This document shows, one piece after another, positions 18,709 through 22,173 of a stretch of 33,944 nt of DNA; position 1 is the stretch's first letter; the number at the start of each line of letters is the position of its first letter. The stretch is from Candidatus Stercoripulliclostridium merdipullorum (GTDB lineage Bacteria; Bacillota; Clostridia; Christensenellales; DTU072), in assembly GCA_018713745.1 (NCBI GenBank), contig DVOH01000010.1, positions 1 through 33,944 on the forward strand, given 5' to 3'. Both the position numbers and the translations under genes were made by a program. A model generated the notes under the pieces. The model was not told where the DNA came from. It was given only the letters and a program-made list of their open reading frames with translations, and did not search any database.

Positions 18709-20703
18709 GTGGCAAAGCAACGGGAGGGGCTGGCCGCACTGAAAGGAGTCGGTCCCGTCACGCTTCTCAAACTCAACAAGCTCGGGATCGCTTCGCCCGA
18801 AGATCTGCTGCGCTTTTTGCCCAAAACTTACATTGATTTAGACGCCGTTTCCCTGCCGTCCGAGGCGGAGGAAGGGGCGTTTGTTTTGTTCGTTCTCCGA
18901 CTGACCTCGGTTTCAAAGCCCTTCCGAAAAGGAAAATTGCAGCTGTTCCGCGCCGTCGGAACTGCCGACGACGGCAAAAAGGTCAAACTCAGTTTTTACA
19001 ACGCTAATTATGTCGCCAAGCAACTAACGGTCGGGGCACGGGTGCGTTGCTACGGCAAACTCCGTACCGAAAAGGGGTACGAGCTGATCAACCCCGCCTA
19101 CGAAGTTTCGGACGGGGACAAGACGCAGTTCAGAGGGATCAAGGCGATTTATCCCACGCGAGGATATTTGCCGCAGGCGACGTTTGCCGCAATGATCGAG
19201 GACGCTTTGCAAAAAGGTTTCTTGTCCGATTCGATGATTCCCGAAGTGTTGTGTCTGAAGCACGGTACCATGCCGTGGAAAGACGCTGTCATTGCCGCCC
19301 ACAGACCGCAATCGACAGCGGATATCGTGCCGGCACGCAACCGCGTTTTGCTGGAAACAATCGTGACCGATATTCTTGCATATCGCTTGCTGAAAGCGCA
19401 TTCCAAGCGGGATTTCGTTTATCCTGCCGACCGGGCAACGCGCGATCGTCTGATTGCGGCGCTTCCCTTTCGGCTTACGCAAAGTCAGACGGAAGCCGTT
19501 GACGGGATTCGCGCCATTCTTGCTTCCGAGCGCCCCCTCAACGCCATGTTGACGGGCGATGTCGGCAGCGGAAAGACCGCCGTCGCGCTCGTGATTGCGG
19601 GATGTGTCGCCCTGGCAGGGCGGCAAGTCGCCGTCATGGCGCCGACCGAAATTCTTGCTAAACAGCATCTCAAAATATTTGCGGAAAGTCTTACAAAAGC
19701 GGGGGTTTCCACTGCGTTTTTGTCGGGATCGACGCCTGCCAAAGAAAAAAAAGAAATTCTGTCGCGCTTGTCGCAGGGCGAAATCGACGTTCTGATCGGG
19801 ACCCATGCCGTTTTGTCCAAAGGCGTGAATTTTTCCGATCTCGGGTTGATGATTGTGGACGAGCAACACCGCTTCGGGGTCGGACAGCGTACACGTCTGA
19901 TCGAAAAGGGGAAGGAAGTCGACGTTCTGACGCTGTCGGCGACGCCGATTCCGCGATCGTTGCGCCTGACGATGTTCGGCGATATCGATATTTTCGGGAT
20001 CGAGCGGCGGCATGCGGCAGATAACATCCACACCGCGATCGTCAGCCGTGCAAAGAAGGAAGAGATGATTGCATATGTTGCCGATGCCGCACGCAAGGGC
20101 GCCAAAGTCTTTGTCGTTGCACCGCGCATTACGGACGACGAAGCGATCGAAGGTTCATCGGTTGAGCGGATTGTGCCGGAATGGAGCAAAATATCCGATC
20201 TGTCGGTCGTTGCGTTGCACGGGAAAATGACGCCGAAGCAAAAGGATGACGCCATCGAACGCTTCCGCAGCGGAGCGGCTTCGGTACTGATTTCGACGAC
20301 GGTGATCGAAGTGGGGCTCGACGTACCCGACGCTTCGCTGATGATCATTTATGACGCGGAGCGGTTCGGGCTTGCATCCCTGCATCAGTTAAGGGGACGA
20401 ATCGGTCGCAACGGCAGCGAAGCCTATTGCTTTTTGTATACCGAAAAAGATAATCCGGAAGAGTTGATTCGGTTGCAGACTTTGGTGACGGAACGGGACG
20501 GAATCGCCATTGCCGAGCGCGATTACGAATTGCGCGGTGCGGGCGAGTGGATGGGAGAAAGTCAAAGCGGACACGGCGAAAGCGGTCTGACGATTGCGTT
20601 GATGAAGCAGGCGAAATCGATTGCGGACGAGATCGATGTTGCGGCATTGCAGGAGCGATTGGAGCCGTATGCCCGAAAGCTCACGTCAATCAGCCTGACT
20701 TAG
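18709..20703 (+). CDS. recG: ATP-dependent DNA helicase RecG
   Basis: RecG remodels stalled forks and branched DNA. The 664-residue protein has an N-terminal wedge/OB region (VGPVTLLKLNKLGI, then the OB strand region to about 150), Walker A GDVGSGKT near 283, APTEILAKQH, Walker B DEQHRFGVGQR near 384, and RGRIGRNG in motif VI. It ends with the TRG-like EWMGESQSGHGESGL segment. The start is GTG 18709, 2 bp after the fakA stop, with no ribosome binding site of its own, which implies coupling. A hairpin terminator follows. Confidence 0.96.
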   Translation: MAKQREGLAALKGVGPVTLLKLNKLGIASPEDLLRFLPKTYIDLDAVSLPSEAEEGAFVLFVLRLTSVSKPFRKGKLQLFRAVGTADDGKKVKLSFYNANYVAKQLTVGARVRCYGKLRTEKGYELINPAYEVSDGDKTQFRGIKAIYPTRGYLPQATFAAMIEDALQKGFLSDSMIPEVLCLKHGTMPWKDAVIAAHRPQSTADIVPARNRVLLETIVTDILAYRLLKAHSKRDFVYPADRATRDRLIAALPFRLTQSQTEAVDGIRAILASERPLNAMLTGDVGSGKTAVALVIAGCVALAGRQVAVMAPTEILAKQHLKIFAESLTKAGVSTAFLSGSTPAKEKKEILSRLSQGEIDVLIGTHAVLSKGVNFSDLGLMIVDEQHRFGVGQRTRLIEKGKEVDVLTLSATPIPRSLRLTMFGDIDIFGIERRHAADNIHTAIVSRAKKEEMIAYVADAARKGAKVFVVAPRITDDEAIEGSSVERIVPEWSKISDLSVVALHGKMTPKQKDDAIERFRSGAASVLISTTVIEVGLDVPDASLMIIYDAERFGLASLHQLRGRIGRNGSEAYCFLYTEKDNPEELIRLQTLVTERDGIAIAERDYELRGAGEWMGESQSGHGESGLTIALMKQAKSIADEIDVAALQERLEPYARKLTSISLT

Positions 20704-20731
20704 CGGAAAAAGCCTTGTTTTGTCGAAGCTA

Positions 20732-20760
20732 TTGAATCCGCCTCCGACGTAGGGTAGTAT
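20732..20760 (+). promoter_or_regulatory. Weak candidate promoter for the NPD-repeat protein gene
   Basis: TTGAAT at 20732-20737 and TAGTAT at 20755-20760 are 17 bp apart, each matching four of six consensus bases. Initiation would fall near 20767, inside the 3' arm of the hairpin described next, so the RNA would lack the 5' arm. Confidence 0.3.
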
Positions 20761-20778
20761 GAAGTCGGAGGTGTTTTT
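20739..20778 (+). terminator. Terminator of recG that also masks the next ribosome binding site
   Basis: CGCCTCCGAC at 20739-20748 pairs with GTCGGAGGTG at 20764-20773 (one G-U pair) around a 15-nt loop, followed by five Ts. This is a good intrinsic terminator. The 3' arm contains GGAGG at 20767-20771, the ribosome binding site of the gene starting at 20779, so read-through RNA would hide it. Confidence 0.7.
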
Positions 20779-22173
20779 ATGACCCGAAAAAATGCGCCTA
20801 AAATTCTTGCCGTATCCTTGTTGGTTATTATTGCCGCACTGATGGCGGTCGCGGGAAGCGGAACGCTCGGAACCTTGTGGGGGGATCCCGATCCCGTACT
20901 GGGCGAGCAGCCCGATGACCAAAACCCGGACGATCAGAATCCCGATGAACAGAATCCCGACGGTCAAAATCCGGATTCCGAAAACCCGGACAATCAGAAT
21001 CCGGACGAAGAAAATCCCGACGATTCGGATCCGGACGGAGAAGATCCCGGGGACGAAACCGACAAGCCCGATTCGCTTCCTTCGGTTTTCCCCAAAAAAG
21101 CGTCGGCGAGCGAGCGTTACCGCTTCGAGCAAAGTCTTTCCGTGAGCGGCGGCGCGGAACTGTTGGACGTCATGCAAACGGCGGAAGGAAACTTTACCGT
21201 TCTCCGGTTGCAACCTTCCGAAGGCGATATCAATGTAAAAGAGCCGTCCGTCGTCTTGCTGAAAAGCGACGCGGAGGGCACATTGCTGGATGCTTATGTT
21301 TTGAAGCAAGAAGGATATTTGTGTTCGCAGATCACGAGTAACGGAATTTCGCTTGCGCTGAGCGACGGTTCCAAGACGTATTTTTATACCGTTACAACCG
21401 ATCTGAACGACAGCGTCGTCATCGAATTGCCGTATTTCCGTTCGGGCAGAATTTTTGCGCTCAGCCAAGGCGCGATCTTTTTTGCCGAAGGCGCCGAAAA
21501 CAGAATTTATCATATCCGCGGCAACGCGGTATCCCGGTCGACTTCGGTACAATCGGGCAGTATCGTCGAAGTGTTCGACTTCGGTTCCCGCTTCGGTGTC
21601 GTGATCAACGGGCTGGACAGTTACTCTTATTTATCGCTGAATCTCAATCTCGAATGTTACGCGACCGTTACCGTCCCCGACCGTACGGCGATCAAAGTCG
21701 TACCCGTCAGCGAAAACGGTGAGCAAAAATTTATCGTCGTCGAACGCGGAAAAGACGGGATTACCGTTGCAAAGCATAAAGCATCCTTTTTGGCTTCGGA
21801 AGCGCGTCGCGTCGGCGTCGGACTTGCCGAACGCGCAAACGTTTACCTGAACGGCACGACAATCTTTTTACACCTTGCAGGCGAAAATTCCAGAATCTAT
21901 CTGATGGATCTTAATCTCGATTTTACGATGTCGAGTGCGGCGCACTTCAAAAACGTGGTCGACGTTCTCGGATGTCATACTTATCGCGGGGGCTATCTGT
22001 TCCTGACCCGCAATGCGGATGACGGGATGTCGCTGATCGACTTACGAGAAGACGGATCGGTGATGAGTAAGTATATCGACGTCGGCGGCGAAAACGCGGC
22101 GTTTGTCCGCGATAACGGCGGCGATACGGTTTTCGTTACGCAAGACGGTGTCTTCCGTATGTACGGATTGTAA
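20779..22173 (+). CDS. Membrane-anchored extracellular protein with acidic NPD pentapeptide repeat (function unknown)
   Basis: I do not recognise this 464-residue protein. It starts with a short basic segment (MTRKNAPK) and one hydrophobic helix at about 9-28, with no lipobox cysteine, so it is probably an uncleaved anchor or a signal peptide. Residues 46-90 are nine tandem pentapeptides of the form D-x-Q/E-N-P, ending GDETDKPD. This is a rigid, strongly acidic linker of the kind found in cell-surface proteins. The remaining 370 residues are rich in alternating hydrophobic strands with recurring motifs (RIYHIRGN, KTYFYTVTTD, RIYLMDLNLD), suggesting a beta-propeller-like or WD/quinoprotein-like fold; this is inference. 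GGAGGTG precedes ATG 20779 inside a hairpin. The stop abuts that of lplA with no gap. Confidence 0.85.
   Translation: MTRKNAPKILAVSLLVIIAALMAVAGSGTLGTLWGDPDPVLGEQPDDQNPDDQNPDEQNPDGQNPDSENPDNQNPDEENPDDSDPDGEDPGDETDKPDSLPSVFPKKASASERYRFEQSLSVSGGAELLDVMQTAEGNFTVLRLQPSEGDINVKEPSVVLLKSDAEGTLLDAYVLKQEGYLCSQITSNGISLALSDGSKTYFYTVTTDLNDSVVIELPYFRSGRIFALSQGAIFFAEGAENRIYHIRGNAVSRSTSVQSGSIVEVFDFGSRFGVVINGLDSYSYLSLNLNLECYATVTVPDRTAIKVVPVSENGEQKFIVVERGKDGITVAKHKASFLASEARRVGVGLAERANVYLNGTTIFLHLAGENSRIYLMDLNLDFTMSSAAHFKNVVDVLGCHTYRGGYLFLTRNADDGMSLIDLREDGSVMSKYIDVGGENAAFVRDNGGDTVFVTQDGVFRMYGL
20914..21048 (+). repeat. Nine tandem 15-bp units coding for NPD pentapeptides
   Basis: The units encode DDQNP, DDQNP, DEQNP, DGQNP, DSENP, DNQNP, DEENP, DDSDP and DGEDP. 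DNA units are similar but not identical and degrade toward the 3' end, as expected for expansion by slippage followed by drift. The number of units may vary among strains. Confidence 0.9.

Follow-up and report, generated by a model that had tools for sequence, protein, structure and literature searches.

Does a hairpin decide from which RNA a gene is translated? The question arises in Candidatus Stercoripulliclostridium merdipullorum, on a stretch of 33,944 nucleotides that was analysed as a whole (the window), where a gene for a 464-aa protein starts after a gap of 75 bp behind recG and has its Shine-Dalgarno sequence inside a stem. The answer that we prefer, with a probability of about 0.6, is a two-RNA switch, in which the hairpin restricts translation of the gene to RNA from a Spo0A-type promoter of its own (for the features involved see Table 1).

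Table 1. Features at the junction of recG and the 464-aa gene, in window positions
Feature	Position	Strand	Basis and remarks
recG	18709..20703	+	ORF; RecG_wedge and helicase domains (domain search); housekeeping gene, proposed source of read-through RNA
Spo0A-type box TTTGTCGAA	20719..20727	+	sequence; 10-bp-phased position in orthologues; holds core TGTCGAA (20721-20727)
hairpin 5' arm (anti-Shine-Dalgarno arm)	20739..20748	+	sited between box and -10
-10 element TAGTAT	20755..20760	+	4/6 to TATAAT; in hairpin loop; positional counterpart of orthologue -10s
hairpin 3' arm	20764..20773	+	GTC + Shine-Dalgarno GGAGGTG (20767-20773)
T5 run	20774..20778	+	separates hairpin from ATG; may be a terminator tail
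464-aa gene	20779..22173	+	membrane helix at the N terminus, acidic linker (low confidence) and predicted beta-propeller

The hairpin over the Shine-Dalgarno sequence

From a structural perspective, the stem consists of ten consecutive pairs, one of them G-U, around a loop of 15 nt, with an energy of -17.4 kcal/mol when folded alone, and the five Ts that follow it lead directly into the ATG. Both this arrangement and the double use of the 3' arm as the GGAGGTG of the next gene had been noticed in the first-pass annotation of this DNA and are borne out. The same annotation had supposed that RNA reading through from recG hides the ribosome-binding site, and the folding prediction agrees, since in read-through RNA the Shine-Dalgarno sequence lies in the stable stem with a mean unpaired probability of 0.01, against 0.24 in the RNA from the predicted start, where the sequence is itself mostly engaged in a weaker pairing with the gene's own codons, a point against the switch. 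A scan of the window with Rfam at gathering score gave 0 matches, and with them no known structured RNA family.

Such a hairpin could also be mainly the intrinsic terminator of recG, in which case its overlap with the Shine-Dalgarno sequence would reflect the economy of a tight gap and not translational control. This account, the best placed of the alternatives, is judged unlikely. It can point to the GC-rich stem with its favourable energy and a T-run directly behind it, to the finding of no other terminator in the gap between recG and the gene, and to terminator-like hairpins before the gene in other orthologues (seven clear, two weak). However, the loop lies beyond the limits of both terminator scans (loops of 3-8 and 3-10), and in relatives, where comparable stems likewise cover the Shine-Dalgarno sequence, a T-run behind the stem is missing; the hairpin could act as a terminator in this genome alone, where the T5 run adjoins the stem. 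None of the five strongest masks is accompanied by a separate terminator-like hairpin, which is no more than suggestive of an either-or pattern of terminator and mask; the scan spanned 200 bp in orthologues and 120 bp in control genes (13/126 with such a hairpin), so that the two rates are not comparable.

Among the orthologues, the stem was set against shuffled upstream DNA. A significant stem (p<0.05) was found in 8 of 31 orthologues vs 9 of 126 control genes, the latter taken from the family genomes and the window by a crude ORF finder (rank test p 4e-4), and near-full masking in 5/31 vs 4/126 (Fisher p 0.016); as the genomes are related, the orthologue counts are not independent. The eight include the near copies G032, G033 and G038 and amount to six separate cases in four genera, while in a fourth near copy, G027, the stem is not significant. 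These counts keep the near copies G032, G033 and G027; G028 and G029, which have no Shine-Dalgarno sequence, stand outside the 31, and the start codons of G003, G011 and G001 were corrected by hand. In an alternative stem test with other leader limits and no control genes, 9 of the 31 fell below 0.05, with G015 at the limit, and the set was partly different.

The pairs found in the relatives involve unrelated sequences, with eight consecutive pairs in G030, fourteen in G008 and eight in G010; in G003, two arms of fifteen positions, judged by eye, pair throughout except for a single mismatch and include one G-U. When read-through RNA is compared with own RNA over all orthologues, the difference is borderline (p 0.053), and in 8 of the 31 it has the opposite sign. 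In other families of the order no masking trend was found, with a significant stem in 1/18; 19 of 20 loci of this sample were examined (G055 was excluded, its match being short of the N terminus), and G041 has no Shine-Dalgarno sequence for the stem test. The predicted masking recurs with unrelated sequences, but it is not universal. The first-pass annotation had held that loss of the pairing in orthologues would speak against its proposal; the outcome is mixed, the pairing being not significant in 23 of the 31 and present with other sequences in four genera.

A still less probable explanation is chance, by which a GC-rich Shine-Dalgarno sequence would happen to match part of the unoccupied spacer that separates the box from the -10; the hairpin would then be functionless and the gene dependent on its Spo0A-type promoter alone. 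Stem length is indeed common by chance, at least ten ungapped pairs being reached in 675 of 5000 shuffles; the fold of positions 20704-20800 (97 nt) is mildly unusual (z -1.49; 13 of 200 shuffles equally good), and most orthologues have no significant stem. By contrast, when the leader is paired with upstream DNA, the energy of its best match is seldom equalled (p = 0.002 with 500 dinucleotide shuffles; p = 0.007 with a wider leader and 1000 shuffles), and stems are in excess in the orthologues over the control genes. The window hairpin is real, strong in energy and unremarkable in length. That its inverted repeat is a DNA operator bound by a repressor around the -10, which the arms do flank, is very improbable, since the layout is found again in other species with arms of unrelated sequence, and a shared operator would be expected to keep its sequence.

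The promoter and its Spo0A-type box

A weak promoter had been placed at 20732-20760 at first pass; its -10 is supported and its -35 is not, the conserved upstream element being the Spo0A-type box at 20719-20727. The pair concerned, TTGAAT (20732-20737) and TAGTAT with a 17-nt spacer, matches the consensus in four of six positions each and remains below the promoter scanner's 9-of-12 limit. The -10 of the window is weak, and its position matches that of the family orthologues: the best -10 match (the script's best in a 49-position range of the orthologues alone, so that one is always found) ends 16 to 24 nt 5' of the ATG in 27 of 33 orthologues, with the window at 18, and at 6 nt in two (G028, G029) and 26 to 38 nt in four. 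It lies within one mismatch of TATAAT in 31 of the 33, the exceptions being the window and G001. TTGAAT was rejected as a sigma-70 -35, as the orthologues have no clear TTGACA-like excess at spacers 16-18 (mean match 2.73/6 vs 2.51 in shuffled sequence, sd of the mean 0.17; at least four matches in 6/30 orthologues vs 4.2 shuffled).

With the transcript start set 7 nt past the -10, own-promoter RNA would begin near 20767, about 12 nt before the ATG, and would lack the 5' arm of the hairpin. With a leader so short, almost no pairing with upstream sequence can form in own-promoter RNA; the part of the masking logic that is specific to read-through RNA would thus follow from the position of the promoter. 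In G028 and G029 (L005 and L010, ATG at 1498), where the Shine-Dalgarno sequence is missing and the -10 is so close to the ATG, translation may start almost without a leader; behind recG, a terminator-like hairpin extends there into the box.

Counted after TTTGTC, the window box stands 30 bp from the -10. Exact TTTGTC boxes were found in 17 of 30 orthologues, one in each, and all 17 lie 29-30, 39-40, 49-50 or 60 bp upstream of the -10; the count scanned all spacings from 8 to 61 and, like the -35 test, dropped G032, G033 and G027 as near copies of G038. Shuffled controls gave 1.3 such boxes on average and 5 at most, five control hexamers gave 0 to 2, and if a single mismatch is tolerated, 37 of 44 boxes are in phase. 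This 10-bp period places the boxes on the same face of the helix. An exact box is missing in 13 of the 30 orthologues, and it is present in G007, G034 and G036 though their genomes gave no Spo0A match; outside the family, exact boxes occur at 2 of 19 loci.

The window box resembles those of Spo0A promoters in Bacillus and Clostridioides, for which PMC3485338 gives TGTCGAA as the core and spo0A itself among the targets: a box with this core stands upstream of the gene. Most orthologue boxes, unlike the published core, diverge from the full sequence after TTTGTC. The genome of the window encodes Spo0A (two Spo0A_C matches in G000), and we infer that the gene at 20779 would be Spo0A-controlled, through binding and activation.

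At a larger scale, the bare TGTCGAA shows no excess over the window as a whole (8 vs 7.3 expected). A looser box-to--10 pattern had 245 matches vs 142 for the reversed control in 31 genomes with Spo0A, a modest enrichment, and 64 vs 87 in 9 genomes without it; a strict pattern of TTTGTCGAA followed by a -10 at the window's distance gave, in 40 genomes, 28 matches vs 12 for the reversed pattern, the spacing limits of both patterns having been set after the orthologues were viewed. The strict pattern precedes spo0A in G014, G015 and G016 (L155, L156 and L175, near 1501), and spo0A behind a box of its own type fits self-regulation, as expected; in G014 the frame behind this arrangement spans just 95 aa and may be broken.

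Some further genes behind these boxes were observed. One, of about 120 aa, follows the strict box and -10 in six genomes, three of them near copies, its likeness being judged by eye (L161:1501-1950, which in the window's own genome is G000:C51, from 5802; L158, L162, L163, L164 and L167); the one member scanned had no Pfam match, and the gene is a candidate for a second Spo0A target. In G007 and G010 (L151 and L153, at 1501) the strict pattern is followed by a gene of TetR-type regulator appearance, so labelled by eye, in G007 although no Spo0A match was found.

The gene product and its link with sporulation

The 464-aa product is modelled with a mean pLDDT of 84.6 over the whole protein and contains a confidently predicted all-beta domain, whose fold matches in the PDB are generic beta-propellers, e.g., the designed eight-bladed Tako8 and BamB. 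The prediction is of a membrane-anchored beta-propeller, with no specific function or blade number claimed. The protein had initially been called a surface protein, a label that fits the sporulation-linked, membrane-anchored beta-propeller to which association and model point. No Pfam match was found for it; three NCBIfam families, each matching 1/30 members at E about 1e-4 and none of them the window protein, were taken as composition matches. The linker (window 20920-21060) holds acidic NPD-type repeats, which vary in length and content among relatives.

Of the 40 family genomes, 33 have a relative of the gene, as do 61 of the 396 in the order sample, some of these 61 with weak scores; the window's genus is represented in the analysis by one genome. 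Ten named records among the relatives are metagenome genomes, three of them from animal colon, with the labels Clostridia, Eubacteriales, Clostridiales, Christensenella or Stercoripulliclostridium. Among plasmid records no match was found. SpoIVA is present in 33 of the 40 family genomes, namely in 32 of 33 with the gene and 1 of 7 without it, so that the two agree in 38/40 (32 both, 6 neither); the mismatches are G014 (gene only, 79% complete) and G031 (SpoIVA only, 60% complete). Gene and Spo0A agree in 34/40 (29 both, 5 neither; Fisher p 0.003), with 4 genomes having only the gene and 2 only Spo0A. In the order sample, a cross-count by hand gave SpoIVA in 57 of 61 gene carriers vs 330 of 396 overall. 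The gene appears to track sporulation, as an association among related genomes and not as independent events.

Nine relatives share recG with the window as upstream neighbour, and elsewhere other housekeeping genes take its place, murG-like (two tested) or rnc (one tested), with several more appearing murG-like or rnc-like by eye from their C-terminal ends. Since the upstream genes differ among relatives, the promoter travels with the gene and not with the neighbour.

Two proposed transcripts, their precedents and their meaning

In the two-RNA switch that we favour, a Spo0A-controlled, sporulation-linked membrane protein would be encoded behind the housekeeping gene recG. RNA presumably reading through from recG would contain both arms and fold, the Shine-Dalgarno sequence would be hidden, and vegetative translation would not take place; in this genome the hairpin with its T5 run may additionally end part of the recG RNA. 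Once Spo0A is active, RNA polymerase would start from the -10 in the loop, at the short distance from the ATG given above, and the resulting RNA, without the 5' arm, would be translated. The two-transcript interpretation offered at first pass is partly supported. The hairpin, its overlap with the Shine-Dalgarno sequence, the phase-conserved box and the co-occurrence with sporulation genes are all legible in the DNA.

The closest precedent is sigG (spoIIIG) of B. subtilis, where a hairpin was proposed to block translation of spoIIG read-through RNA and cannot form in own-promoter RNA (PMC5942855). There too, a sporulation gene lies behind another gene, and in both cases the mask would be restricted to read-through RNA. 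In contrast, the sigG hairpin described there has 20 or more pairs and that of the window ten, with a T-run after the stem; sigma F and sigma G serve the sigG promoter, whereas the window promoter is of Spo0A type; a sporulation-specific operon lies upstream of sigG and a housekeeping gene upstream in the window, and the products are unrelated. In phage T4, a hairpin hides the ribosome-binding site of I-TevI in the long RNA from an upstream promoter, the late-promoter RNA being too short for it, and soc, e and other late genes are named as repressed by similar structures (PMC2988022). The likeness is that in the window, too, the ribosome-binding site would be hidden in the long RNA alone; the T4 cases, however, involve phage late promoters and were tested in the laboratory, whereas the window has a Spo0A-type bacterial promoter and its case is predicted from sequence. 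Kinship with the sigG and T4 masks is a matter of anatomy, which supports it, and the window offers a plausible new example of a mechanism already known. Work on Rho in B. subtilis (PMC5540618) suggests that read-through RNA matters for cell fate. The literature searches covered the mechanism and the Spo0A boxes, and no claim is made that the 464-aa gene is absent from print.

More tentatively, and with clearly less confidence than for the switch itself, a guard extending over the lineage can be imagined, in which a Spo0A-driven sporulation gene repeatedly found behind housekeeping genes (recG, murG, rnc) would be shielded from vegetative read-through by means that differ between species. An intrinsic terminator would serve in some, an anti-Shine-Dalgarno arm newly evolved in the free promoter spacer in others, and in G028 and G029 a start almost without a leader, while in the window one hairpin would do both jobs. 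Selection would then act on the pairing and not on the sequence.

If the two-RNA reading is true, the read-through mask of the sigG type would be no Bacillus curiosity, as uncultured Clostridia would have it too, before another gene and with arms of separate origin, and the short leader could be a simple route by which such masks arise, nearly any upstream pairing being specific to read-through RNA. It would also point to a sporulation-linked membrane beta-propeller outside the Pfam families, with a Spo0A-type promoter, and the rule of a 10-bp-periodic distance from box to -10 could help to read Spo0A targets from metagenome genomes.
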